Assembly (NCBI GenBank): GCA_030685015.1 | Contig: JAUXWS010000026.1 | Span: 1-13,820, forward strand | Source of the DNA: a bacterium | GTDB lineage: Bacteria; CAIWAD01 | Length of the DNA stretch: 13,820 nucleotides | Reading direction: 5' to 3' | In this document: positions 557-13,368 of the stretch, piece after piece | Position numbering within the stretch: position 1 is the first letter of the stretch | Layout of the letters: each line of letters starts with the position of its first letter | Translations under genes and position numbers: made by a program | The notes under the pieces: model-generated | Databases searched by the model: none | What the model was told of the DNA's origin: nothing | The model's input: only the letters and a program-made list of their open reading frames with translations

Positions 557-646
557 CTACCGCTTCCTCCATGTCCGCGTGGCCAACCAGATCAACAGGT
601 CCACCAGCAGATCCCCCCAGTCGATTCCGCGCTTACGCCTCTGCAT
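557..646 (-). CDS. Possible 29-residue cationic hydrophobic peptide
   Basis: On the minus strand, ATG at 646-644 opens a 29-codon frame that ends with TAG at 559-557. A GGGAG ribosome site lies 9 bases upstream, inside the end of the preceding gene. A second in-frame ATG three codons upstream (655) is too close to that site. The peptide has a basic N-terminus (QRRKR), a hydrophobic centre (WGDLLVDLLIWLA) and a basic C-terminus (RTWRKR), as in small membrane-associated peptides. It overlaps the upstream gene by 14 bases, continuing the overlap pattern of the operon, and its stop lies 3 bases before the terminator, which fits a last gene. It could still be chance. No homologue is known to me. 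Confidence 0.38.
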   Translation of the reverse strand: MQRRKRGIDWGDLLVDLLIWLATRTWRKR

Positions 647-1343
647 GGCCGGCATCTCCCGGATCTTGGTAGTCGTCTTTGACAACCGTGGCCAGCGCAT
701 CCTGCCAGGATTCCCGCACCGCCTTCACCTGCGCCAGTTCTTCCGGCGTGATCAGGCGGTCCACCGTCATCAGCACCTCGGCATAGCGATAGGGCGGGCG
801 CTGGATGTCCTTCAATTCGAAGCGCGTACGCACGGCCAGGTAAGGCACCTTGGACCGCGCCAAGCGCTGCACATAGCGATGCCACTGTTTGATGCTGGTG
901 GGCGAGAGGGGCAAGACCCACAGCGCAGGTTCACCGTCCTCGCCGGGAGCCAACACCAGCAGGCGCACCTTGGGCTTGCAGCGGCTGCCGAAGCCACTCA
1001 GGGGACATTGCTCACAGTTCGAAGCCTGGGGCGTGTCCACGGTGGGCTGGCCATTTACAGCGGCGCAAACCGGCAGGGTGCCCCCTTCCTCAAACACGGC
1101 GCGGATGTGCTGGTGGGCGACCACGATTCCCGACAACTGGTTGCCTTCCAGAGGCACCACCAGGCCTTCGTCCTCGATGGTCGGCCCCAGATCCAGGAAC
1201 AGGCGATGCTGGCCACTGGGACTGTGTTCCACGCGCACGCGGGGCAAGGGCATGTGCACGCCTTCGGTCATGCGATCCAGTTCGGCCTGCAGATCGATGT
1301 CCAGGGCGGGCAGGCATTCGCTGATGTGGGCAGGGCTGTTCAT
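633..1343 (-). CDS. Four-cysteine protein of mobile elements, function unknown
   Basis: This 236-residue soluble protein starts at ATG 1343-1341, with GGAGGAA 5 bases upstream. The frame is open further upstream to 1478, but that part lies inside the preceding gene. The ATG overlaps the stop of the nuclease gene as ATGA, implying translational coupling. Four cysteines (C93, C110, C113, C122) lie in a central segment, LPVCAA, then NCEQCP, then GSRCKP, which looks like a zinc- or cluster-binding knuckle. After it comes a beta-strand (RLLVLAPG), a Leu/Pro segment (LWVLPLSPTSIKQW) and a C-terminal helix. From memory, phage and plasmid proteins share this layout, and a role in single-stranded DNA binding has seemed plausible to me, but I cannot name the family. 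Its nuclease neighbour supports DNA work. Confidence 0.75.
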   Translation of the reverse strand: MNSPAHISECLPALDIDLQAELDRMTEGVHMPLPRVRVEHSPSGQHRLFLDLGPTIEDEGLVVPLEGNQLSGIVVAHQHIRAVFEEGGTLPVCAAVNGQPTVDTPQASNCEQCPLSGFGSRCKPKVRLLVLAPGEDGEPALWVLPLSPTSIKQWHRYVQRLARSKVPYLAVRTRFELKDIQRPPYRYAEVLMTVDRLITPEELAQVKAVRESWQDALATVVKDDYQDPGDAGHAEA

Positions 1344-2230
1344 GCGACTTCCTCCAATTGTGATACAAGGGATTCCAGGCGGGCCATTGGCAGATGGGCG
1401 TCTTGGGTCGCGCCACGACAGGCGTCGGCAAAGGCGCAGACACCACACTTCAGGGGATCCGGCGAGCGCGGATAGCACCCCGCCTTCATCATCCGTGACA
1501 CATGGGCCACGTCCTGTTTCATGGCCTTCAGCTGGTCCAGGTTGCGGGTGGTGCTGATGCGCGGCTCCCCGCGCTCTTCCCCGGCGGACTTGCCCCCAGT
1601 GGCGCGCTTGTAAGGGATGTGGTGGCGCAGGAAGTAGAGAGTCAGGCGATCCGGCAGAATGCGTGGTTGCAGCAGCTTGCCGTCCACCAGCAGGGTGCCG
1701 TGGAGCAAGGCATAGGCGTAGATGGACAGCTGGTAGTCCAGGTCCACATAGGCCTGGGGCGGAATGGTCTTGCCGCTCTTGAAATCCACAAGCTCCAGTG
1801 TGCCGTCCGGGTGCTGGCGCAGCTGGTCCAAGGTTCCCGTCAGCTGATGGCGACCCAACTTCACGGTGAACTGGGCCTCGGCCATCAGCACTTTGCAGGC
1901 ACGGTTGTAATCCTTGCCGCGGTAGCCCTCCAGCATGGCCACGGCGTCGGACAGGTACTGGTCGCGGTCTTCCGCTTCAGCCTTCCAGCGTACGGGCAGC
2001 GTGTCGTTTTGTCCATTTGTCACTTCGTGCTGGAAGGCCAGCAGGTAAGCCGCCTGCAAATCCATGTCCCAGTCGCCTTCGTGCATGCGCTTGATCAAAC
2101 CGTGCAACACAGTGCCGTGGATGGCGGCGGGGTGTCGGAATGTCCGTTTGTCCGGTTCGGCGCTCTGCAGATAGTGCTGGTAGGGACAGCGCAGATAGCT
2201 GTAGATGGTGGATTGGCGCAGGGTCTCCAT
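1340..2230 (-). CDS. RecB/Cas4-like PD-(D/E)XK nuclease with iron-sulfur cysteines
   Basis: A 296-residue protein with the marks of the RecB/AddB/Cas4 nuclease family (PDDEXK_1). In order: C15 in CPYQHY, H43 in the HGxxxxR segment, E119, GTLD (D135), VDFKSGK (D149, K151) and the YQLSIYAYAL motif (Q167). A C-terminal cysteine set follows: C262, C265, C271. C15 plus these three is the arrangement that holds a 4Fe-4S cluster in AddB and Cas4. The expected activity is metal-dependent DNA end resection. ATG 2230 is chosen because GAGG lies 8 bases upstream; the TTG at 2236 leaves no room for a ribosome site. It starts 2 bases after the DUF932 stop and overlaps the next gene by 4 bases. No cas1, cas2 or repeat array is present, so a CRISPR role is unlikely. 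Confidence 0.88.
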   Translation of the reverse strand: METLRQSTIYSYLRCPYQHYLQSAEPDKRTFRHPAAIHGTVLHGLIKRMHEGDWDMDLQAAYLLAFQHEVTNGQNDTLPVRWKAEAEDRDQYLSDAVAMLEGYRGKDYNRACKVLMAEAQFTVKLGRHQLTGTLDQLRQHPDGTLELVDFKSGKTIPPQAYVDLDYQLSIYAYALLHGTLLVDGKLLQPRILPDRLTLYFLRHHIPYKRATGGKSAGEERGEPRISTTRNLDQLKAMKQDVAHVSRMMKAGCYPRSPDPLKCGVCAFADACRGATQDAHLPMARLESLVSQLEEVA

Positions 2231-2232
2231 GG

Positions 2233-3006
2233 TCAACCCCTCGCGTGGTCAAGGAAGTACTGCGTGACACGCCGGTTGGTGTGCTCGGCGCCAAAGGACT
2301 CCTGCCGCGTCAGCACATGGGTGAAGGCGTTGTAGAGATCCCAGGCACGGCTGCCTCCCAGTTCCATGAAGACATCGGACACCAGCGGACGCGGGATCTC
2401 CAGGTCGCTGAAGACACGCTGGATCCCGGCAATGGAGAGCTTCTGGCGGGTCATGGTCTGAAACTTGGGTGCGAGCAGGTGGATGTTGTGGGACAGCTGT
2501 TGGAGCCGCTCCACGGCCTGCTCCACCTCGCCATCGAAGACATCGCCATGGGCCTGGTTGTGCTTGAAGCGGAAGCCGCCCAACAACTGGTCCACCACCA
2601 TGCCGTTGGAGCAAAGCAGGCGCTGCATGTTGAAGGCGACGCCGAAGCGAGCGGAGCCGTCGTAGGAATTCCAAGCGTCCAGGGTCAAGGCGACGATGTC
2701 GCCGGGTTGGGCCTCGAAGGTGTGCTGCCCCAGCACCCAGCGCTGGCGGAAGCGTCGGCCATCGAACAAGGTCTTGCCCCGCGTGGCTTCCAGAGCGCCC
2801 TCCGCCAGGATGCGCTCCGCCGTCTCCACCACACGGGCGTTCTCCACCAGGTTGTAGTCGTCGGACACAATGCCCGCTTCCTCGTGGGCACCCTGCGGAT
2901 CCAGCACGATGGCGTAGCGGCTGGACTGCACACCGGCCGGGGTGAACAGGGGCACACGTTGGATAGGCACAAAGGGGTCATTGACCGTCAGGGTTCGCGG
3001 TCTCAT
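2233..3006 (-). CDS. DUF932 phage/plasmid-like protein
   Basis: A 257-residue protein matching the DUF932 (phage/plasmid-like protein) family by its internal signature: YNLVENARVVETAERIL (residues 51-67), then NSYDGSARFGVAFNMQRLLC (113-132) followed by SNGMVV. The last resembles the family's N-S-x-D-G-S ... R-L-x-C-S-N-G block. Family members are common in phages, plasmids and integrative elements and have no settled biochemical role. The length is typical of shorter members. ATG 3006 has AAGGAAGGA 4 bases upstream. The stop lies 2 bases before the start of the RecB/Cas4-like gene, so the two are co-translated, which suggests joint work in recombination or DNA protection. A 71-base gap separates it from the integrase gene and could hold its own promoter. 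Confidence 0.88.
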   Translation of the reverse strand: MRPRTLTVNDPFVPIQRVPLFTPAGVQSSRYAIVLDPQGAHEEAGIVSDDYNLVENARVVETAERILAEGALEATRGKTLFDGRRFRQRWVLGQHTFEAQPGDIVALTLDAWNSYDGSARFGVAFNMQRLLCSNGMVVDQLLGGFRFKHNQAHGDVFDGEVEQAVERLQQLSHNIHLLAPKFQTMTRQKLSIAGIQRVFSDLEIPRPLVSDVFMELGGSRAWDLYNAFTHVLTRQESFGAEHTNRRVTQYFLDHARG

Positions 3007-3077
3007 GGGTCCTTCCTTTCGGGTTGAACAGGGTTGGCTTCTGCGTCTCTGTTCTTATGCCCGAAAAGCGACCCGGA

Positions 3078-4157
3078 TCACGTTTTCTTGGGAATCCTCG
3101 GCAGTGTATCCACGGCGATTTTCAGATCCATGGGCGCCACGTGGGCGTAGCGCATGGTCATTTCGATGGACGCGTGGCCCAGCAATCTGCTGACCTTTTC
3201 GATGCCCACACCCTTCTTCACCAGGTGCGTGGCGAAGGTGTGACGCCACTGGTGCACGTCCCCGGTCAGCTCCAGTTTCTTCAGCGCCGTCTTCAGGGCT
3301 AGGTAGATCTTGTCGCGGTGAATGACGGTGCCGCGGTAGTCACTGAACACGCGGTTGTGCGGGTGGCGCTTCTGCCGGTTCACGATGTCGACGGCGTCCT
3401 GCGACAAGGGAACCACGCGGGTGCGGTTGGTCTTGGTGCGCCAGTCCTTCTTGCCCCGGATGATGATGCAGGGCGGGCTCGTGGCCAGGTCCACGTCGTC
3501 CCAGGTCAAGTGGATCAGTTCCTCCTTGCGCAGGCCCGTGTGATACAAGAAGGCGAAGGCATCCCGCCAGTAGTGGCCCACCTTGGACAGGATGCGCACG
3601 ACTTCTTCTTCCGTCCAGTAGGGCGGGGTTTCATCCGATGTTTCAGGGTAGGCCTTCAACTTGCTCGCCGGGCTCTTGGCCAGCAGTTCATCGTCCACGG
3701 CCATGTTGAACAGGGAGCGGAGGAACTGCATCTGGCCGTTCAAGGTCTTGTTGGCGAAGCCCTCCTCCACCAGCACCTGGATGTGCTCCTCCAGCTGGGC
3801 ACGTGTCACCTGGTCGATGCGCAGCACCTTGGGGAAGGCCTCGCGGAAGAAGGCGAGGAAGTGATCCGCGTAGATCTTGTAGCGCAGCTGCGAGGACTCG
3901 CGGGTACGCCGCACCTTGGTTTGCAGGAAGCGGTCCACCATCGCTTGCAGCGTCGGCGCCTCCTGCAACGGCTTCTGGCCTGCCTGGGCGTTCTGCAGAT
4001 CGGTGAAAAGCTTGGCGGCACGCTTCTCCGCCAGGTCCTTGCGGGGGCCGATGGTCTCGCGGAAGCGCTGGCCGTCGATCATGTAATCGAGGTAGTAGAC
4101 AACGCTGCCGGAGGGATTCTTGCGCTGCCGGACGATGGGGACTTTGGTCAGTGCCAT
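3078..4157 (-). CDS. int: Tyrosine recombinase / integrase
   Basis: A 359-residue site-specific recombinase that would insert and excise the element at tRNA-Ser. The N-terminal part (about 1-65) has the arm-binding character seen in integrases (SGSVVYYLDYMIDGQRF), then a core-binding SAM-like domain (about 68-165) and a catalytic domain (about 175-350). The active-site set is complete: R210 (TGLRKEEL), K242 (RTKTNRTRVVPL), H302 and R305 (HQWRHTF), H328 (LLGHAS) and nucleophile Y337 (RYAHV). ATG 4157 is chosen over an upstream in-frame ATG at 4190 because GGGAG lies 6 bases before it. It points away from the tRNA, 119 bases from the tRNA 3' end. No excisionase gene is recognisable in the window. 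Confidence 0.95.
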   Translation of the reverse strand: MALTKVPIVRQRKNPSGSVVYYLDYMIDGQRFRETIGPRKDLAEKRAAKLFTDLQNAQAGQKPLQEAPTLQAMVDRFLQTKVRRTRESSQLRYKIYADHFLAFFREAFPKVLRIDQVTRAQLEEHIQVLVEEGFANKTLNGQMQFLRSLFNMAVDDELLAKSPASKLKAYPETSDETPPYWTEEEVVRILSKVGHYWRDAFAFLYHTGLRKEELIHLTWDDVDLATSPPCIIIRGKKDWRTKTNRTRVVPLSQDAVDIVNRQKRHPHNRVFSDYRGTVIHRDKIYLALKTALKKLELTGDVHQWRHTFATHLVKKGVGIEKVSRLLGHASIEMTMRYAHVAPMDLKIAVDTLPRIPKKT

Positions 4158-4163
4158 GGCGGA

Positions 4164-4193
4164 CTCCCGTGCGAAATCGTGGTCGATCACGGG
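4164..4193 (-). promoter_or_regulatory. Hairpin overlapping the integrase ribosome site
   Basis: On the minus strand CCCGTG (4193-4188) can pair with CACGGG (4171-4166). The last three bases of the second arm are the GGG of the GGGAG ribosome site (4168-4164) of the integrase gene. An imperfect 14-base palindrome, CGTGGTCGATCACG on the plus strand (4178-4191), lies in the loop and could be a protein operator. Folding would hide the ribosome site and lower integrase synthesis. The pairing is seen in the sequence; the control role is inference. Confidence 0.3.
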
Positions 4194-4224
4194 CGAACCG
4201 CTTTGTCACATTATTGGCAAATCG

Positions 4225-4268
4225 CCAAAAAGCAGAAGCGGAACGCCCTGATCTTCAAGGCGTTCCGC
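4225..4268 (-). terminator. Terminator of the tRNA-Ser transcript
   Basis: On the minus strand a perfect 10-bp stem, GCGGAACGCC (4268-4259) with GGCGTTCCGC (4247-4238), closes an 11-base loop. It is followed by TTCTGCTTTTT (4237-4227 on the complement). It lies 8 bases past the tRNA-Ser(GCU) 3' end and before the integrase start. It would end the tRNA transcript and insulate the integrase from tRNA transcription. Confidence 0.85.
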
Positions 4269-4276
4269 CAATATAA

Positions 4277-4363
4277 CGGAGAGGGAGGGATTCGAACCCT
4301 CGAACGGGGTTAACCGTTACGCACTTAGCAGGCGCGCGCATTCGACCACTCTGCCACCTCTCC
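4277..4363 (-). tRNA. tRNA-Ser(GCU)
   Basis: An 87-base class II tRNA. The acceptor GGAGAGG (4363-4357) pairs with CCTCTCC, followed by discriminator G at 4277. The anticodon loop CTGCTAA gives anticodon GCU (plus-strand 4327-4329) on a five-pair stem with one G-U. A long variable arm (AACGG ... CCGTT) marks serine. The T arm GAGGG-TTCGAAT-CCCTC is perfect. CCA is not encoded (the next bases are TTA). Its 3' end is the likely attachment site of the neighbouring element, which leaves the tRNA intact. Confidence 0.95.
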
Positions 4364-4390
4364 AGGATGATGCGCCTCCCATGGAGGAAC

Positions 4391-4474
4391 CGGAGGAAGG
4401 GGGACTCGAACCCCCAAGGGCCGAAGCCCGGCGGTTTTCAAGACCGCTGCCTTACCAGTTAGGTCTATTCCTCC
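4391..4474 (-). tRNA. tRNA-Ser(UGA)
   Basis: An 84-base class II tRNA. The acceptor GGAGGAA (4474-4468) pairs with TTCCTCC, with discriminator G at 4391. The anticodon arm GCGGT-CTTGAAA-ACCGC gives anticodon UGA (plus-strand 4438-4440). A long variable arm (GGGC-TTCG-GCCC) and a perfect T arm GGGGG-TTCGAGT-CCCCC follow. CCA is not encoded. The D arm reads TAGACCTAACTGGTAAGGC; against the usual TAGCC...GGC form it carries one extra base between the acceptor and D stems or within the D stem. It lies 27 bases upstream of tRNA-Ser(GCU), probably in one transcript. Confidence 0.92.
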
Positions 4475-4488
4475 ATCGGAAGCGCACA

Positions 4489-4600: not shown

Positions 4601-6973
4601 ATGTCCCCATCCTTGATCATCTGGTGTGTGGCCACGGGGGTCCTGGCCTGGCAGGGCACCCGCTGGTGGACAGGCCTGCGCCGCCTGGGGGCTTCGCCGG
4701 CGCCAGCGGCGGCCCAAGCGCCGCATCCAGCGGTCTGGGTGCTGGTGGCGGCCCGGGACGAGGCGCTGCAGGTGCCCGCCCTCTTGACCGCCCTGGCCGG
4801 GCAGGCAGGGGTGGATGCCCGGCCCCGCCTGGTGCTGGTGGACGATGGATCAGTGGACGGCAGTGCCGATCTGGCCCGCCGCCTGCTGGCCGACTGGCCG
4901 GAGGCGACCGTCCTGGTCCAGCCGCCGGCGGGCAAGCTGGCCGCCCTCGCCGCCGGCCTGCGCCACGTGCTGGAAAGGGCCGGTGCGGAGGATCTCGTCC
5001 TCTTCACCGATGCCGATTGTCGTCCCGCCGCCGGCTGGCTGGCCGCCCATCTGGCGGCCCATGCCGCCGGCGCCGACCTGGTGGGCGGCCACGTCGTCCT
5101 TGCTTCCCCGGACGGCGAGGTGTCCGCCTTCCGCCGCTTCGAGAACGCCGCCAGCAGCCTGCAAGCCGCTGTGGGCTTCATGCTGGGCAGGCCGCCCTTC
5201 GCCCGGGGCGCCAACTGGTCGACGCGGGCCCGCCTGCTGCGCCAGGTCGACGGTCTGTCGAACCTGGAGGATCTGCCCAGCGGCGACGACGTCCACCTCA
5301 TCCGGCGTCTGGGGCAGGTTGCGGCGCGCTGCGCCTTCCTCACCAGCGCGGCGTCCATCGTCCACACCCGTGAGGCGGGCAACGCCGTCCGCCAGGCCCG
5401 CCGCCGCTACGGCAAGCTGCGGGACCTGCCCGCCCGCGAGATCCTGCGCCAGGCCTCGCTCTTCCTGGCGCTTCTTCTGCAAGGAGCGCTGCTGGCCCGT
5501 TGGGCCGTGGCCGGCTCCCCGCTTGTCCTGCTCCCCGCCACGCTCCTGCCGGCCCTGGCGCTCGCCGCCCGGCGGATGCTGGCGGAGGGCCTGGCCCTGC
5601 TGGGCGAAGGGGAGCTTGTGCCCCGTGCGGGGCGACTGTCCCTGCTCCTGGTGCTCCACGCCCTCCGGCACAGCCTCGTCGGCGGCCTCCGCGGCTACCA
5701 GTGGCGCCAAGGCGCCCCCTCCCGCGAGTCCCTCCTCTTCCTGCGACACACCCTTACCCTGCGCCGGCTCTGGAACGCGGTCAAGAGCCATGCCAGCTAC
5801 GGTCTTTCCCTCCTGCTGCGGCGCCCCATCGTCTGGGGCCTGCCCACCGTCTTCATGGTGGAACCCACCAACGCCTGCAACCTGAAGTGTCCCCTCTGCC
5901 CCACGGGCGCGGGAACGCTCAAGCGGCCCGCCCGCTTCCTGGACAAGGCCGTCTACGACCGCCTGCTGGACGAGCTGGGTCGCGACGCCTTCATGGTCCT
6001 GCTCTGGAACCAGGGGGAGAGCTTCCTCCACCCCGACTTCCTGCCCATGGTGCGCCGGGCCGCCGGGATGGGCCTGTGGACCTACGCCTCCACCAACGGC
6101 CACTACCTGGACGACCCCGATGCCCTGGTCCGCAGCGGCCTGGGCACCCTGCTTGTCAGCGTGGACGGCGCCAGCGCCGAGACCTACGAGGCCTACCGCC
6201 GCAGCGGCAACTTCCCGCTGGTGGTGGAGGGCCTCACCCGCCTGATGGCGGCCAAGCGCCGCCTGGGCAGCGCCACGCCCGTCGTCCACCTCCAGTTCAT
6301 CGTCATGCGGCACAACCAGCACGAGATCCTCGAGATCGACCGGCTGGCCCGCCGCTGCGGCGTGGACCGCCTCACCCTGAAGACCGTGCAGATCTACGAC
6401 GACGCCGACATCGACGTGTGGCTGCCCGAGGACGAGGCGGCGCGGCGCTACCAGGTGGTGGAGGACGAGGGGGGTCGCCATTTCGCCATGAAACACGGCT
6501 ACCCCAACCGCTGCCAGCGCCTCTGGAACCAGCCCGTGCTCAATGCCGGCGGCGAGCTGGCCGTCTGCTGCTTCGACAAGGACAGCGACTTCGCCATGGG
6601 CGACCTGTCCACCCACAACTTCCGCGAGCTGTGGACCAGCCGGCCCTACATGGCCTTCCGCCGCGCCGTCTTCCGCCAGCGCAGCCAGTTCGAGATGTGC
6701 CGCAACTGCGGCGAAGGGGTGAGACTCACCCTCGAGCAGCGGGACCTGGCGGTGGATCTGCGCCGGCCCCTGGGCGACAGCCTGCGCCACCGGGGCTGGG
6801 CCGTCCCTGACGAGGATGAGGTCCGCCGCCGCATCGAGGCGGCCCGCGCCAGCCGCCCGCGCGAGGCGGGTGGCCGGGAGCAGCGGCGCGAGGGCCGGGA
6901 CGGCGTGGCCGGCATGTCGCTGGGACAGGGACCCCGCCCCATCGAGGAACTGGAGGGCAGGGAGGCGCCATGA
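4601..6973 (+). CDS. Fusion of GT2 glycosyltransferase and radical SAM/SPASM enzyme
   Basis: One 790-residue frame with two enzymes. Residues 1-25 form a hydrophobic anchor. Residues about 45-275 are a GT-A family 2 transferase: VLVAARDE (48-54), DD (81-82), DAD (137-139), SGDD (227-230) and RQARRRY (264-270), which resembles QxxRW without the Trp. Membrane segments follow (about 285-330). From about 412 comes a radical SAM domain: CNLKCPLC (C426, C430, C433) to bind the 4Fe-4S cluster that cleaves S-adenosylmethionine. SPASM-type cysteines follow (C638, C656, C657, C700, C703) for an auxiliary cluster. The tail (705-790) is Arg- and Glu-rich. ATG 4601 is the only start after an in-frame TAG at 4571; no strong ribosome site precedes it. 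It overlaps the next gene as ATGA. The coupled domains suggest a sugar is transferred and then modified by radical chemistry; the substrate is unknown. Confidence 0.93.
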   Translation: MSPSLIIWCVATGVLAWQGTRWWTGLRRLGASPAPAAAQAPHPAVWVLVAARDEALQVPALLTALAGQAGVDARPRLVLVDDGSVDGSADLARRLLADWPEATVLVQPPAGKLAALAAGLRHVLERAGAEDLVLFTDADCRPAAGWLAAHLAAHAAGADLVGGHVVLASPDGEVSAFRRFENAASSLQAAVGFMLGRPPFARGANWSTRARLLRQVDGLSNLEDLPSGDDVHLIRRLGQVAARCAFLTSAASIVHTREAGNAVRQARRRYGKLRDLPAREILRQASLFLALLLQGALLARWAVAGSPLVLLPATLLPALALAARRMLAEGLALLGEGELVPRAGRLSLLLVLHALRHSLVGGLRGYQWRQGAPSRESLLFLRHTLTLRRLWNAVKSHASYGLSLLLRRPIVWGLPTVFMVEPTNACNLKCPLCPTGAGTLKRPARFLDKAVYDRLLDELGRDAFMVLLWNQGESFLHPDFLPMVRRAAGMGLWTYASTNGHYLDDPDALVRSGLGTLLVSVDGASAETYEAYRRSGNFPLVVEGLTRLMAAKRRLGSATPVVHLQFIVMRHNQHEILEIDRLARRCGVDRLTLKTVQIYDDADIDVWLPEDEAARRYQVVEDEGGRHFAMKHGYPNRCQRLWNQPVLNAGGELAVCCFDKDSDFAMGDLSTHNFRELWTSRPYMAFRRAVFRQRSQFEMCRNCGEGVRLTLEQRDLAVDLRRPLGDSLRHRGWAVPDEDEVRRRIEAARASRPREAGGREQRREGRDGVAGMSLGQGPRPIEELEGREAP

Positions 6974-7932
6974 GGTCCGTCCTCACCGGCTGGTTGCTCA
7001 AGTCGGCCGTGGCGCTGGCGCTCTGCGTCTGGCTGCTCGGCCGCCTGGACGCCCCCGGTCTGGTCCGGGCCGTGGGGGACATGTCCTTCCTCCACCTGGC
7101 CAGCGCCCTGCTGCTGCTGGTGCCCAACCTGGCCTTCCAGGCCATCAAGTGGGGCCTGCTGGTCAGGGCCCAACTGCCGCGGGCGACCGGGGGACGCATC
7201 GTGCTCTCCTTCCTGGCGGGCACGGCCCTGGGCACCCTGACACCGGGCCGCCTGGGCGAGCACGCCCGCGCCGCCTGTTTCGGGGGCCGCCGGACGGAAC
7301 TGGCCGCCCTCTCCCTGCTCGACAAGTTCAGCTCCGCCGCCGTCACCAGCCTGTTCGGCGCCCTGGGCCTGCTCCTGCTGCCGCGCTGGGACCTCAGCAT
7401 CTTCGGCCGGGCGGCGCCGCTCGTGCTGCTGTTGTTGGGCCTTTACGCCGCCGCCGTCCTCGTCTGGACCCTGGCCGGCCTGGCCCTGCTCCTGGCTCCG
7501 GCCCGCGTCACCGGCCTGCTGGGCCGCCTGCCCTGGCTGGCCGCCCGGGAGCGCTTCGCCCGGGTCCACGGCGCCATGCTGCTGGTGCGCCGTCCGCGCC
7601 GCCTGGGCCTCCTCGCCGCGGCGCTGGCCTTCTACCTCACCTTCATCACACAGTTCGTCCTGCTCGCCCGCGGCCTGGGGCTGGATTCGACGCTGGCGCC
7701 CGCCGCCGCCGCCGGCACCATGTTCCTCAAGAGCCTCTTCCCCATCAGCCTGGGCGACCTGGGAGTGCGCGAACTCTTCGCCGCCAACCTCTTCGCCAGC
7801 ATCGGCGGCGCCCCCGAACTGGCCGTGACAGCGGCCTTCCTCCTCTTCGTCATCAACGTGCTGCTCCCCTCCCTGGCCGGCAGCTGGGCGGCCCTGGCCC
7901 TGCGCCCCTGGGGCGGAAGGGAGGACAGGTGA
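6970..7932 (+). CDS. YbhN/AglD-type integral membrane protein (flippase-like)
   Basis: A 320-residue, very hydrophobic protein with about eight likely membrane segments. It carries the two signatures of the LPG_synthase_TM/UPF0104 (YbhN, AglD) family: TPGRLGEHARA (91-101) and FPISLGDLGVRELF (257-270). Family members include the membrane part of lysylphosphatidylglycerol synthase and many uncharacterised proteins found next to glycosyltransferases, often taken to move or handle lipid-linked substrates. There is no soluble acyl- or aminoacyl-transferase domain, and the length fits the stand-alone form. ATG 6970 overlaps the upstream stop (ATGA), with GGGAGG 4 bases upstream. It overlaps the next gene as GTGA. 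Its place between GT2 genes suggests it presents or flips the lipid carrier; this is inference. Confidence 0.9.
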   Translation: MRSVLTGWLLKSAVALALCVWLLGRLDAPGLVRAVGDMSFLHLASALLLLVPNLAFQAIKWGLLVRAQLPRATGGRIVLSFLAGTALGTLTPGRLGEHARAACFGGRRTELAALSLLDKFSSAAVTSLFGALGLLLLPRWDLSIFGRAAPLVLLLLGLYAAAVLVWTLAGLALLLAPARVTGLLGRLPWLAARERFARVHGAMLLVRRPRRLGLLAAALAFYLTFITQFVLLARGLGLDSTLAPAAAAGTMFLKSLFPISLGDLGVRELFAANLFASIGGAPELAVTAAFLLFVINVLLPSLAGSWAALALRPWGGREDR

Positions 7933-9101
7933 GCCTGACCGCCCTCAGCCTGCTCGCGCTCAACGGGGTCTATGCCGCTTATGTGTGGCGGCTGGGCGGC
8001 GCCCTGGCCGGACGCGGCGACCGCCTGGCGCCCGGCGGCGGGGAGGAGGGCGAAGTGGCGGCCGGGGGGATCTCCGTCATTGTCCCCGCCCGCAACGAGG
8101 CGGAGGCCCTGCCCGCCACCCTGCGGACCTTGTGCGCCCAGACCCTGCCGCGGGAGCGCTGGGAGCTGCTGGTGGTGGACGACTGCTCCCGCGACGGCAG
8201 CGCGGAGGTGGCGCGGGTCCTGATCGAGGAGCTGGGCCGGCAGGGCGTCGCGGCGCGCCTGCTGGGCACCACGCCCGGGCGCAGCGGCAAAAAGGAGGCC
8301 ATCGACCTGGGCCGGGAGGAGGCGCGGCATGACTGGGTGGCCGTGCTGGACGCCGATTCGCGCCCCGGTCCCGACTGGCTGGCCACCCTGCTGGGCGCGG
8401 TCCGGTCCGGCGACGGCCTGCTGGCCGGGCCGGTCGTCTTCGCGGGGGAGGGCCTCTGGTCGCGCCTGGTGCGTCTGGAGTACATGGGCCTGCTGGGGGC
8501 GGGCCTCGCCTCCTTCGCCCTCGGCCGACCTCTCTTCGCCAGCGGGGCCAACCTGGCTTGGCGGCGGACGGCCTACCGCGAAGCAGGCGGCTACGAGGGC
8601 CTGCTGCACCTGCCCAGCGCCGACGACACGCTGCTCATCCAGCGCATGCGGCTGCGCACCCGCTGGACCCTGGCCGCCACGCTGGCCCGCGGCGCCCTCG
8701 TCGCCACCCGCGGTCCGGCCGGGCCGCGCGAGTTCTGGCGCCAGCGCGTGCGCTGGACCTCCAGCGAACGCCACATGCCCGACCGCGCCGCCCAGGCCGG
8801 CGCCCTGGGCCTCTACCTGGTCTTCCTGGGCACGCTGCTGGCGCCCATCCTGGCCCTGAGCGGACACCTGTCCGCGCATGCCGCCCTCGGCATCGTCCTG
8901 CTCAAGCTGATCCCCGACCTGCGCCTGACGGTCCACGCGGCGCGGCGCCTGGGCGGGCGCGGCCTGCTGCCGCTCTTTCCGCTGGTCTGGCTGGGACAGC
9001 TGGCCTATGGACTGGTCGTGCCCTGGGTCGGGACCTTCGTCCGCCCCCCGTGGCGCGGCTCGCCGGCCGAGGGCCGGCCGCCGCTCGGATGCGCGCCATG
9101 A
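7929..9101 (+). CDS. Membrane GT2 glycosyltransferase (second copy)
   Basis: A 390-residue protein starting at GTG 7929, which overlaps the previous stop (GTGA) and has GGGAGG just upstream. The frame is open further back but runs inside the upstream gene. There is an N-terminal membrane segment (about 3-20), then a GT-A domain: ISVIVPARNEAEALP (48-62), VVDDCSRDGS (82-91, nucleotide-sugar aspartates), LDADSRPGPDW (140-150, metal-binding DxD), SADDTLL (230-236) and QRVRW (272-276), a clean QxxRW motif as in membrane-embedded synthases. Three or more C-terminal membrane segments (about 292-312, 318-335, 346-372) follow. It probably adds a sugar to a lipid acceptor on the cytoplasmic face of the membrane. 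The C-terminal tail ends in low-complexity Pro/Arg/Gly residues. Donor and acceptor cannot be read from the sequence. Confidence 0.93.
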   Translation: MSLTALSLLALNGVYAAYVWRLGGALAGRGDRLAPGGGEEGEVAAGGISVIVPARNEAEALPATLRTLCAQTLPRERWELLVVDDCSRDGSAEVARVLIEELGRQGVAARLLGTTPGRSGKKEAIDLGREEARHDWVAVLDADSRPGPDWLATLLGAVRSGDGLLAGPVVFAGEGLWSRLVRLEYMGLLGAGLASFALGRPLFASGANLAWRRTAYREAGGYEGLLHLPSADDTLLIQRMRLRTRWTLAATLARGALVATRGPAGPREFWRQRVRWTSSERHMPDRAAQAGALGLYLVFLGTLLAPILALSGHLSAHAALGIVLLKLIPDLRLTVHAARRLGGRGLLPLFPLVWLGQLAYGLVVPWVGTFVRPPWRGSPAEGRPPLGCAP

Positions 9102-9805
9102 GCGCCCTGCTGCACCGGCCGCCCGCCTGGCGCCCCCTCCTTCAGCCCGGGCTGTGGCGCCTGCCCCGGCGCCTGGCCTGGCTGGGCGGCAGCGGTCGCG
9201 TCCTCCTCACCTTCGATGACGGACCCGGACCGGCCACGGCTGAGGCGGCCCGTCTGCTGGAGGCGGCGGGGGCGCGCGCGCTCTTCTTCCTCGTGGCCGG
9301 CCGCCTGCCCGAGGATCCGGCCCGCCCCGCCACGGCGGACGAGGAGCAGGCCCTGGCCATCACCCGCGCCCTGCTGGCCGCCGGCCACCTCCCCGCCGTG
9401 CATGGCCTCAGCCATCGGCGCCTGGGCCTGCTGCCGCCTGCCGTCGTGCGCCGCGACCTGGCCCGCGCCGCCGGACGCCTGGCCGCCGCCTGCGGCCTGC
9501 CGCCGATCTTCCAGCGGCCGCCCTACGGCAACTGGACGCCCTGGCTCAGCCGCGTCTCGCGCCGTCTGGGCCTGGAGCCCGTCTTCTGGAGCCTCAATCC
9601 CGCCGACTACCGCGCCCCGCGCCCGGACGCGCTCGTCAGCCGGGTGCTGGAGCTGGCGCGCCCGGGGGACATCCTGCTTCTGCACTGCAGCGGCCCGGGC
9701 CAGGAGTCGACGCGGGCCGCCCTGCCGGCCATCCTGGCCGGTTTGCGCGGCAAGGGGCTGAGTCCGCTTGATCCCATGGCCCTGCTGGAGGACGCCCATG
9801 CCTGA
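9098..9805 (+). CDS. Polysaccharide deacetylase family protein (NodB fold, CE4)
   Basis: A compact 235-residue NodB-type deacetylase. Motif 1 TFDDGP (38-43, D40 base and D41 metal), motif 2 HGLSH (H102 and H106 metal ligands, with Gly in place of the usual Thr/Ser), motif 3 RPPYG (140-144), motif 4 FWSLNPADY (163-171) and motif 5 DILLLH (191-196) are all in order. The family removes N- or O-acetyl groups from sugars such as GlcNAc, using a metal. There is no signal peptide, so it likely acts on a cytoplasmic or membrane-bound intermediate. ATG 9098 is preferred because it overlaps the upstream stop (ATGA); ATG 9089 is also in frame, and neither has a strong ribosome site. It overlaps the next gene by 8 bases. 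It may trim a sugar added by a neighbouring GT2. Confidence 0.93.
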   Translation: MSALLHRPPAWRPLLQPGLWRLPRRLAWLGGSGRVLLTFDDGPGPATAEAARLLEAAGARALFFLVAGRLPEDPARPATADEEQALAITRALLAAGHLPAVHGLSHRRLGLLPPAVVRRDLARAAGRLAAACGLPPIFQRPPYGNWTPWLSRVSRRLGLEPVFWSLNPADYRAPRPDALVSRVLELARPGDILLLHCSGPGQESTRAALPAILAGLRGKGLSPLDPMALLEDAHA

Positions 9806-10964
9806 GTGGCTGCTGCTGCCTCCCGGCTGGCCCCGCGCCCTGGCGCTGGTCGTGGCGGCGGGCATCCTCATCATGATCTGGCTGCGCCGCGCCTGGCTCG
9901 AGGAACTGGTGGAAGAGGGGAGCGACCGGGCTGCCGCGGAGAGGAGCGCGCCGGCGGCAGGCGGGGAGCCGCAGCGCAGCCTGCTCATCGTCGCCCGCAA
10001 TGAAGAGGAAGCGCTGCCCGGCCTGCTGCAGGACTTGGACCGGCTGCTGGCGAGGGATCCCGCCCTCGAGATCATGCTGGCGGACGACCAGTCGACGGAC
10101 GGCACGCGCCCCCTGCTCGAGGCATTCTGCGCCGATGCGGAGCGTCACGGGCGCGTCCGGCTCCTGCCGGCCGAACCCGGCCGCCGCGGCAAGCCCGCCT
10201 GGCTGCGCCACGGCGTTGATCAATGCCGGGGCCGGCAGGTGCTCTTCAGCGACGCCGACTGCCGGCTGCCGGCCGGCTGGAGCCTGGCCCTGGGCGCCCT
10301 CCTCGACGAAGGGCTGATCGCGGTGGGTGGCCTCGTGCTGCTGGAAGGAGGCGCCACGCCAGACCCCGCCGCGCGCTGGCAGCGCCTCCACTGGCTGCTC
10401 CTCTCGGGCATGGGCGCTCTCCTCTCGGCCCGCATGCACCAGGCGGCGCCCTCGCTCTGGGGGGCCAACCTTGCCTTCGACCGCGCCGCCGTGGACAAAC
10501 TGGGCGGTTATGCCCGACTGGCCGCCGTGGACAGCGGGGAGGATCTGGCCTTTGCCCGGGCGCTGGCCCGCCTCGGGGCGCCTCATCGCCTCGCCGCCTT
10601 TCCCCTCGACAGCCGGGTGCGCACCAGGCCCGAGACGTGGGCGGGCAGCGCCCGCCAACTGGCCCGCTGGTTGGCCGGCCTGCCCCGCCTGGCGCCGCTC
10701 CATCTGAGCCTGGTCCTGGGAGCCGCGGCCTGGCTGGGTGCCCTCGCCGCCATCCTCCTCCTGCGGCCCATCCTGGGCCTGGTGCTGGGCGGCGCCGCCG
10801 TGCTCAGCCTCTCCGCCCTGCTGGACGAGCTGGCCGCCCGCCTGCGCGAGGAGCGGCCCGCCGCCTCCGAGACGGCCCTCTACCTGGCCGCTTGGCCGCT
10901 GGTGGCCCTCCTCGCCCTCTGGCATGGCCTGCGCGGCACCACCGGCTGGAGGCGCCCCGCATGA
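9798..10964 (+). CDS. Membrane GT2 glycosyltransferase (third copy)
   Basis: A 388-residue protein starting at ATG 9798, with GGAGG 6 bases upstream; it overlaps the deacetylase gene by 8 bases. An N-terminal membrane segment (about 13-30) precedes a GT-A domain: LLIVARNEEEALP (62-74), DD (96-97), LFSDADCRLPAGW (149-161, DxD at 152-154), SGED (246-249) and QLARW (287-291, QxxRW). C-terminal hydrophobic segments (about 303-335 and 360-377) follow. Its DxD block (LFSDADC...AGW) is very like that of the fused GT2 (LFTDADC...AGW), while the second copy differs (VLDADSRP), so the first and third may be the closer pair. It overlaps the PHP gene as ATGA. It probably adds another sugar to the same lipid-linked product; donor and acceptor are unknown. 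Confidence 0.92.
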   Translation: MPEWLLLPPGWPRALALVVAAGILIMIWLRRAWLEELVEEGSDRAAAERSAPAAGGEPQRSLLIVARNEEEALPGLLQDLDRLLARDPALEIMLADDQSTDGTRPLLEAFCADAERHGRVRLLPAEPGRRGKPAWLRHGVDQCRGRQVLFSDADCRLPAGWSLALGALLDEGLIAVGGLVLLEGGATPDPAARWQRLHWLLLSGMGALLSARMHQAAPSLWGANLAFDRAAVDKLGGYARLAAVDSGEDLAFARALARLGAPHRLAAFPLDSRVRTRPETWAGSARQLARWLAGLPRLAPLHLSLVLGAAAWLGALAAILLLRPILGLVLGGAAVLSLSALLDELAARLREERPAASETALYLAAWPLVALLALWHGLRGTTGWRRPA

Positions 10965-12571
10965 GAGGTCCCACCCATCATGCGGAGAGCCATCCGCGCT
11001 ACGCCGAACTCCACTACACGCCCCTGGGCAAGTCCCTGTCACGCCTTTGGCAGCCCTGGCCCGAGATCTACCTCGACCTGCCCTGGCGCATCACGGCGGG
11101 ACGACCGCTGCCCCTGCTCCTCGCCTTCGCCGACGCCCACCGCTTCCCGGTCCGCCTGTTGGCCCTGGAGTTGACCCTGGCTGATCCGCGCGGCCGCCTC
11201 ACCCAGCAGCGTCGCGACCTGGACATCCGCCTCGAGACGCCGGTGGGCGGCCTGGTCCTGCTCGAGCTGGAGCTGGAGGATCCCGGCACGTGGGAACTGT
11301 GGGCCGACCTGCGCGCCGAGCGCCTGCCCGGCCCGGGCGGGGCGGCGGGCCAGGAGATCCTCTTCCGCAACCACCTCGCCCGCGGCCTCCCCGAGGAGCC
11401 GCTCCGGGTCCGGGTGGACCGCACGCCGCCGCCCCTCCTGCCCGGCATGGTCCAGGGCGATCCCCACGTCCATTCCTCCGCCACCCGCGACATGATCGAG
11501 TTCGGACCACCGCCGGAACTGCTGCGCCGCGCGGCGCGCGCCCTGGATCTGGACTGGTTCGCCCTGACGGACCACAGCTACGATCTGGACGATGGCGTGG
11601 AGAATCCCCGCCGCGCCGATCCTGCCCTCCCCATCTGGCGGCGCCAGCAGGAGTGGCTGGCGGCGGCGGCGGCCACGCCCGGCCCCTTCGTCATGGGCGG
11701 CGAGGAATGCTCGGTGGGGGGCGTGGGCGGTGGCATCCTCCACCTGTTGCTCCTGGCTCCCGACCGCTTCTGGCCCGGATCGGCCGACGGCGGCGAGTCC
11801 TGGCTGCCGCGGCGTCCGGAATGGCGTCTGCCCGCGCTGTTGGAGGCGCTGGCCGGCAGTGGCTGCCTGCCGGTCTCGGCCCACACCGGGGAGCGGCCGG
11901 GCGCGGGCGAGCGCTGGCTGCTGCGCCGCCGCTCCTGGCGCGGGGAGGACATGGCCCTCCTGACGGCGCACCAAGTGCTCTCCGGCGGGCTGGGGGCCGC
12001 TTTCCGGGCGGGTCGCCGCCTGTGGCTGGAGCAGCTGGCCCGCGGACGCCCCGCCGTCATTCTGGCCGGTGGGGACAGCCACGGCCATTTCAGCCTGGGA
12101 CGCTCCGTCCACGTGCCGGCCTGGAGCCTGGGTTGGGGACGCAGCCAGCTCTTCGGCCGCCACCGCAGCGCCTGCCTTCTGGCGGCGGGGGAGGCGCTGG
12201 CACCCCCTGCATCGGACCAGCCAGACCAGCGCCCCCGCCGTCTGCTGGCGGAACTGGAGGCCGGACGCACCCTCCTCACGGACGGCCCTCTGCTCTGGTT
12301 CACGGGTGGCGGCCAGACCTGCCTGGGCGGCATCCTGGCCGGGGGCGGATCCCACCTGCATGTCCGCCTGCGCGACGATGCCGGCCCCCTGCGTTGGCTG
12401 CGGCTGTGGGGGGGCGCTGCGGCCGGGGAGACGCTGCTCGCCGAGTGGCGGAAGCTGCCCCCAACGGCTGAACTGCCCCTGTCCTCCGCCTGGCGGGCAC
12501 ACCGCTGGCTGCGCGCCGAGCTTCGCCAGGCGGACGGCTTCGCCATGACCAATGCCGTCCGACCTGACTGA
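10961..12571 (+). CDS. PHP-domain metallohydrolase (CehA/McbA-like)
   Basis: A 536-residue protein. Residues about 1-155 look like a beta-rich domain (alternating hydrophobic strands such as RLLALELTL and GLVLLELEL). A PHP metallohydrolase domain follows: GDPHVHSS (H169, H171), ALTDHSYD (D204, H205), GGEECS (E248), H261, SAHTGE (H308) and GGDSHGHF (D372, H374), which supply the metal ligands expected of PHP enzymes. A final beta-rich part (about 430-536) ends the protein. PHP enzymes hydrolyse phosphoesters, and the CehA/McbA branch also hydrolyses other esters. There is no signal peptide. ATG 10961 overlaps the upstream stop (ATGA), with GGAGG 8 bases before it. As the last gene of the operon it may release a phosphate or other ester from the glycan or its lipid carrier; the substrate is unknown. 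Confidence 0.9.
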   Translation: MRGPTHHAESHPRYAELHYTPLGKSLSRLWQPWPEIYLDLPWRITAGRPLPLLLAFADAHRFPVRLLALELTLADPRGRLTQQRRDLDIRLETPVGGLVLLELELEDPGTWELWADLRAERLPGPGGAAGQEILFRNHLARGLPEEPLRVRVDRTPPPLLPGMVQGDPHVHSSATRDMIEFGPPPELLRRAARALDLDWFALTDHSYDLDDGVENPRRADPALPIWRRQQEWLAAAAATPGPFVMGGEECSVGGVGGGILHLLLLAPDRFWPGSADGGESWLPRRPEWRLPALLEALAGSGCLPVSAHTGERPGAGERWLLRRRSWRGEDMALLTAHQVLSGGLGAAFRAGRRLWLEQLARGRPAVILAGGDSHGHFSLGRSVHVPAWSLGWGRSQLFGRHRSACLLAAGEALAPPASDQPDQRPRRLLAELEAGRTLLTDGPLLWFTGGGQTCLGGILAGGGSHLHVRLRDDAGPLRWLRLWGGAAAGETLLAEWRKLPPTAELPLSSAWRAHRWLRAELRQADGFAMTNAVRPD

Positions 12572-12921: not shown

Positions 12922-13368
12922 ATGCTCAAGGAGTTTCGTGAGTTTGCCATGCGCGGCAACGTGGTGGACATGGCGGTGGGCATCATCATCGGCGGCGCCT
13001 TCGGCACCATCGTCAAGAGCCTGGTCAGCGACGTGATCATGCCTCCCATCGGTCTGCTGCTGGGTGGCGTGGACTTCTCCAACATCTTCCTCACGCTCAA
13101 GGATGGCATGACGGCGGCCCCCTACGCCTCCCTGGCCGACGCCCAGACGGCGGGCGCCGTCACCGTCAACCTGGGCGTTTTCCTCAACGCCGTCATCAGC
13201 TTCCTCATCGTCGCCTTCGCCGCCTTCCTGCTCATCAAGGCGATCAACCGGCTGAAGCGGGCGGAGGCGCCGGCGCCCGCCGCCCCCACCACCCGCGAGT
13301 GTCCCCATTGCTTCAGCACCATCTCCCTCAAGGCGACGCGCTGCCCCTTCTGCACGTCGACCATCTGA
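12922..13368 (+). CDS. mscL: Large-conductance mechanosensitive channel MscL
   Basis: A 148-residue channel protein that opens under membrane tension to release solutes on osmotic down-shock. The N-terminal helix and first membrane segment are typical: [20 protein letters not shown] (5-24), then [20 protein letters not shown] (24-43). A loop (about 46-80) and the second membrane segment (about 85-107) follow. The C-terminus carries an added zinc ribbon, CPHC (C127, C130) and CPFC (C141, C144), which E. coli MscL lacks and which makes this protein slightly longer than that 136-residue homologue; similar tails occur in other bacterial MscL proteins. ATG 12922 has AGGAGG 5 bases upstream. It stands alone, between a terminator and an antisense intron remnant. 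No clear promoter was found in 12807-12921. Confidence 0.97.

Follow-up and report, generated by a model that had tools for sequence, protein, structure and literature searches.

One open reading frame joining a membrane glycosyltransferase to a radical SAM/SPASM enzyme, a probable recent fusion in a putative envelope glycan operon

The stretch of bacterial DNA analysed here (13,820 nucleotides, hereafter the window) carries a gene (4601..6973, + strand) in which a GT2 glycosyltransferase is followed in the same frame by a radical SAM (rSAM)/SPASM enzyme. Is this a genuine gene fusion, and what would a glycosyltransferase tethered to a radical enzyme do?

The translation is 790 amino acids long and free of stops. 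The GT2 catalytic domain (4739..5122, + strand; residues 47-174) matches PF00535 (Glycos_transf_2) with an E value of 7.5e-13 and 49.2 bits for a Pfam cut-off of 23.3, which places it in the family. Its motifs reach as far as SGDD 227-230, and this motif, DD81-82 and DAD137-139 are all intact. Three hydrophobic helices close the GT2 half in the AlphaFold secondary structure (5432..5692, + strand; residues 278-304, 307-333 and 337-364) and hydropathy backs the first two. The fusion joint follows at 5693..5728 (+ strand), as located by DNA alignment, codon spacing and a linker of low pLDDT. Beyond it lie an rSAM domain (5858..6286, + strand; residues 420-562; PF04055, E 1.8e-12, 48.2 bits for a cut-off of 29.5) carrying the CxxxCxxC motif at 426/430/433 and a SPASM domain (6512..6709, + strand; residues 638-703; PF13186, E 5.8e-11, 42.9 bits for a cut-off of 21.5) with cysteines 638, 656, 657, 700 and 703; both belong to their respective Pfam families. 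No other Pfam domain is present in the fused protein, and in particular no B12-binding domain. The eight cysteines are invariant in an alignment with 20 rSAM relatives of 34-83% identity. In a more distant rSAM relative (L088) C657 is replaced by Thr, so that a single auxiliary cluster with four cysteines (638, 656, 700 and 703) is the safer reading. An earlier note on this DNA had described an unbroken frame leading from the GT2 domain through membrane segments into the rSAM/SPASM domains; this description holds, with three Pfam domains above their gathering cut-offs, and the residue numbers it gave for the motifs and the eight cysteines were all correct on re-examination. Such a frame lies well outside what chance would give, because each half is homologous to a separate known family in matching orientation and frame.

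The rSAM half ends in a C-terminal tail (6830..6970, + strand) with the alignment pattern ASRPREAG..E.RREGR.GVAG.SLGQGPRPIEEL. This basic tail of 40 residues is near-identical in four species (the window's and those of L001, L118 and L111) despite its disordered look; its conservation is confined to the window's family, and other phyla lack it. No second copy was found in the window's genome at E < 0.2.

The AlphaFold model of the GT2 half consists of a GT2 core with an N-terminal helix (residues 3-30) and the three C-terminal hydrophobic helices. Its fold resembles archaeal PcManGT, hyaluronan synthase, BcsA and ArnC. A low-confidence linker (residues 364-376, pLDDT about 39) then leads to the rSAM barrel. 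The relative placement of the two domains is of low confidence (pTM 0.52), and the model of the rSAM half has a mean pLDDT of 85.4. The folds nearest to the rSAM half are DesII (Z 21.7), BlsE (21.0), SkfB (20.4), SuiB (19.6) and BtrN (19.6). Since this list mixes three enzymes of sugars or cyclitols with two of peptides, the fold alone leaves the substrate class undecided. The top PDB sequence match is BlsE (E 9e-13).

The joint was compared with three relatives, two from the same genus (L001, genome G002; L002/L118, genome G001) and one from the same family (L084/L111, genome G003). All three encode the GT2 and the rSAM enzyme as separate genes that overlap by ATGA, with a purine-rich stretch in front of the overlap, which answers a question raised in the earlier note, namely whether relatives carry the two halves as adjacent genes. 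In the DNA alignment the window lacks 26-35 nt of the relatives, including the GT2 stop, the ribosome-site region and the rSAM ATG, and as a result both halves fall in one frame. The conserved GY.W codons are 65, 56 and 59 nt away from the conserved CTCTTY codons in the relatives (all 2 mod 3); in the window this distance is 30 nt (0 mod 3). Near the joint, in-frame starts occur at residues 326, 340 and 351, which belong to the GT2 half, and at 419-420, inside the first barrel strand. The window joint has no plausible start for a separate rSAM protein, the next one after residue 351 being codon 419. The fusion is the derived state because the outgroup G003 also has two genes. The two halves have diverged to different extents: identity to the same-genus copy is 57% for the GT2 half and 80-84% for the rSAM half, and to the separate genes of L111 0.37 and 0.64, respectively. 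In both halves codon position 3 is the one that varies most.

How rare is this arrangement? An rSAM homologue search of 290 related genomes gave 46 with a match at E <= 1e-25, and in the phylum of genome G218 27 of 40 genomes have a match at E <= 1e-50. Among the matches listed (about 90 rSAM homologues from the 290-genome and the 40-genome phylum searches, that is, the searched sets and not all proteins), none shows a fusion to a GT2 and in none did the GT2 half match within the rSAM frame. Nearly all are open frames of ~330-440 aa. The longer rSAM frames in L001 and G003 reflect a stop-to-stop frame that extends, out of frame, beneath the GT2 gene, and one weak match of 834 aa (G189) contains an internal stop. 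A candidate second fusion (L069), matched by both halves in tblastn, was rejected: its GT2 has an ORF of its own (339 aa), and its rSAM part is a fragment at a contig edge. Relatives of the fused protein were not found in viral contigs, nor was a GT2-rSAM/SPASM fusion found described in open-licence papers. These results agree with the earlier view of the fusion as unusual.

The same rarity could have another origin, namely a deletion introduced at the joint by assembly or consensus calling, the organism really having two ATGA-coupled genes as its relatives do. We regard this as unlikely, although it carries some weight: the sequence comes from one draft assembly of 105 contigs, each of the three near relatives has two genes and the fusion is unique among the about 90 homologues listed. 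However, a loss of 26-35 nt differs from a homopolymer slip, a search at the joint found no direct repeat that could have collapsed, and stop, ribosome-site region and start are gone together; the frame is left open, for which the expectation by chance is about 1 in 3. A frameshift or assembly join had been named beforehand as what would undo the fusion. There is no frameshift inside either half, but the joint itself is a loss of 26-35 nt that a single assembly cannot authenticate. The gene fusion is rare, and it is probably real and recent.

The fused gene opens a run of overlapping genes on the + strand. It shares an ATGA with the gene of a flippase-like membrane protein (LPG_synthase_TM, 6970..7932; PF03706, E 2.5e-20), which is followed by a second GT2 membrane glycosyltransferase (7929..9101, GTGA overlap; PF00535, E 3.6e-23 and PF13506, E 1.7e-13), a NodB/PdaB-like polysaccharide deacetylase (9098..9805, ATGA overlap; PF01522, E 3.8e-19), a third GT2 membrane glycosyltransferase (9798..10964, 8-nt overlap; PF00535, E 1.4e-15) and a CehA/McbA-like PHP metallohydrolase (10961..12571, ATGA overlap). 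The last matches NF038032 with E 6.2e-13, below the cut-off, and its homologue in L149 lies above it. Thus every other joint of the operon from the fused gene onward still overlaps (6970, 7929, 9098, 9798 and 10961). The gene order of the whole operon is common to L001 and L118, and G003 (L111) matches it up to the deacetylase. A same-class genome that is 67% complete (G004, L116) carries GT2-flippase-GT2-deacetylase-GT2-PHP without rSAM, suggesting that the rSAM step may be dispensable. In L116 a Wzi-like gene adjoins the operon (82 bits with a small custom Wzi profile). Pfam searches gave no Wzi match in the window's genome or phylum, and the controls were silent as well.

Two further features of the window lie outside this operon. 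The region 590-4475 has a lower GC content (about 60-64% vs 71-78% in the operon) and resembles an element integrated at a tRNA. It contains, on the - strand, genes for a PD-(D/E)XK exonuclease (1340-2236), a DUF932 protein (2233-3006) and a tyrosine integrase (3078-4190), and ends with two tRNA-Ser genes (4276-4475). An MscL gene (12922-13368) encodes a C-terminal CPHC...CPFC zinc-ribbon-like tail with a weak UPF0547 match.

The association of the two families extends well beyond the window. The rSAM family adjoins a GT2 gene, usually together with a flippase-like PF03706 gene and often with a Wzi-type capsule protein gene, in at least four phyla: the window's (five genomes), those of the G218 and G061 phylum lists, and that of G005, a genome outside all three of these. 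Distant loci were chosen solely by rSAM similarity. A GT2 gene is close to the rSAM gene in 20 of about 34 loci, two more end at a contig edge past the flippase gene and the remainder have no GT2; at these loci the Wzi, GT2 and flippase labels come from small custom profiles, and of three Wzi genes checked against Pfam (PF14052) two were over the cut-off and one (L143) just under. Gene orders include Wzi-GT2-rSAM-flippase-x-GT2-GT2-PHP (G005), Wzi-GT2-flippase-rSAM (G218, G077 and G194) and GT2-GT2-rSAM-rSAM-flippase-PHP (G061); in G285 the Wzi gene adjoins rSAM. The G061 locus (L149:7193-9342) thus has two adjacent rSAM/SPASM genes between its GT2 and flippase genes. In G194 (L146:8747-9717) a flanking rSAM copy is broken, with an intact copy beside it. 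In G218 a second rSAM-GT2 pair (L144:16263-18652) has the opposite order and a 4-nt overlap, an independent instance of the two families being paired. Subunits of complexes are enriched for short gene overlaps (PMC10666635). Many rSAM family members have no GT2 nearby (e.g. L113, L147, L148, L151 and L160), which counts against the reading we prefer below. The pairing of GT2 and rSAM is nevertheless real and old, and the suggestion that both activities belong to one pathway is backed by the conservation of this neighbourhood across at least four phyla.

The nearest logic is offered by HpnI, HpnK and HpnJ, which represent the same three kinds of enzyme as the window operon: HpnI is a membrane GT2, HpnK a deacetylase and HpnJ a radical SAM enzyme, and they work one after another on a sugar linked to a lipid. 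However, HpnJ carries a B12-binding domain before its radical SAM domain, where the window's rSAM half has a SPASM domain and no B12 domain, and the deacetylase of the window is of the PF01522 type, unlike HpnK. HpnJ and HpnK belong to families other than those of the window's rSAM half and deacetylase. The three hpn genes are jointly required for the bacteriohopanetetrol (BHT) cyclitol ether (PMC5462960). The hopanoid pathway was rejected as a candidate: with positive control searches, no squalene-hopene cyclase (PF13243) was found in five genomes of the phylum, and membership in the HpnI/HpnK/HpnJ system fails on this and on the missing B12 domain.

BlsE, DesII and BtrN are soluble antibiotic-pathway enzymes. 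They apply radical SAM chemistry to sugars or cyclitols and are the top matches of the rSAM half in fold likeness (Z 21.7 to 19.6), but share only about 14-20% identity with it and have no glycosyltransferase fusion. In other phyla the rSAM homologue adjoins GT2, flippase-like and Wzi genes as in capsule/LPS-type clusters with Wzi (PF14052). We know of no capsule pathway with a radical SAM step. By analogy, the window system may work like HpnI/HpnK/HpnJ, though it is a member of neither the Hpn pathway nor the mycofactocin pathway.

We consider it reasonably probable that the gene arose recently by fusion of two genes that were translationally coupled in an operon for an envelope glycan or glycolipid, and that its rSAM half modifies a sugar linked to a membrane lipid. 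Such a sugar is the most economical substrate given the fold matches and the flippase-like, deacetylase and Wzi neighbours. The fused gene would be expressed as a single protein. Its first half would be a membrane GT2 using an NDP-sugar at the cytosolic face. Its second half would be a cytosolic rSAM/SPASM enzyme in which, as in its family, the C426/C430/C433 cluster would serve to generate a 5'-deoxyadenosyl radical and C638/C656/C700/C703 would hold one auxiliary FeS cluster. Its likeliest job would be the oxidation, epimerisation or rearrangement of a membrane-lipid sugar built by the fused and neighbouring GT2s. Flipping of the product would fall to the PF03706 protein, and its trimming to the deacetylase and the PHP hydrolase. 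If the rSAM half works, the C-terminus of the GT2 half must be cytosolic. If all four predicted hydrophobic helices cross the membrane, this end could lie outside, which counts against the proposal; an Arg-rich stretch past the last helix of the GT2 half favours a cytosolic location. The earlier proposal that the product of sugar transfer passes straight to the radical enzyme gains no support from the model, in which the linker is of low confidence (pLDDT about 39, pTM 0.52), nor from the relatives, all of which have separate enzymes.

Could the rSAM half instead be a peptide or protein maturase, with the GT2 glycosylating the same peptide or cofactor in the manner of mycofactocin? There, an rSAM/SPASM enzyme (MftC) and a GT2 (MftF) belong to one pathway as in the window, with weak sequence matches to both halves, and MftF glycosylates mycofactocin (PMC7491314). 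The matches to the MftF (TIGR03965, E 1.8e-17, 63.4 vs 280 bits) and MftC (TIGR03962, E 1.3e-14, 54.1 vs 265 bits) models lie below their cut-offs. Among curated sequence models the best-scoring are those of metalloenzyme maturases, such as the rSAM maturase of tungsten-cofactor oxidoreductases (TIGR04317, 103.1 vs 380 bits), with every score far short of its cut-off, and the RiPP maturases SkfB (Z 20.4) and SuiB (19.6) are about level with the sugar enzymes in the fold list. Yet mycofactocin is a peptide-derived cofactor made from separate genes, where the window has one frame; each gene of the operon overlaps the next, so that a precursor gene would not fit between them; and the flippase-like, deacetylase and Wzi neighbours are glycan genes. 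A search for MftB in five genomes of the phylum gave no match, its controls being silent too. A maturase role is improbable. Still less credible is that the gene is decaying, with one half functionless and the fusion neutral: the lower identity of the GT2 half to its same-genus copy would fit, but the catalytic motifs of both halves are intact, no stops occur and the GT2 is also the faster-changing half against the separate gene of L111.

Within the preferred reading of a fused enzyme acting on a membrane-lipid sugar, a more specific form can be put forward only tentatively. The protein may be a bifunctional membrane enzyme in which the GT2 attaches a sugar to a lipid carrier and the tethered rSAM/SPASM enzyme at once alters that sugar, as the fused version of an undescribed multi-phylum envelope pathway (GT2, PF03706, rSAM and often Wzi) with radical chemistry on a lipid-linked glycan. 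As sequence-based hints of joint action go, domain fusion is one of the stronger. The locus also illustrates a simple route to gene fusion, the loss of an ATGA stop/start overlap. Together with synteny in at least four phyla, the fusion ties a conserved but uncharacterised rSAM/SPASM family to membrane glycosyltransferases and glycan building, from which arises a testable proposal, namely that an envelope sugar linked to a lipid is the target of radical chemistry. Its main value is as a pointer to a conserved, uncharacterised GT2-flippase-rSAM envelope module.
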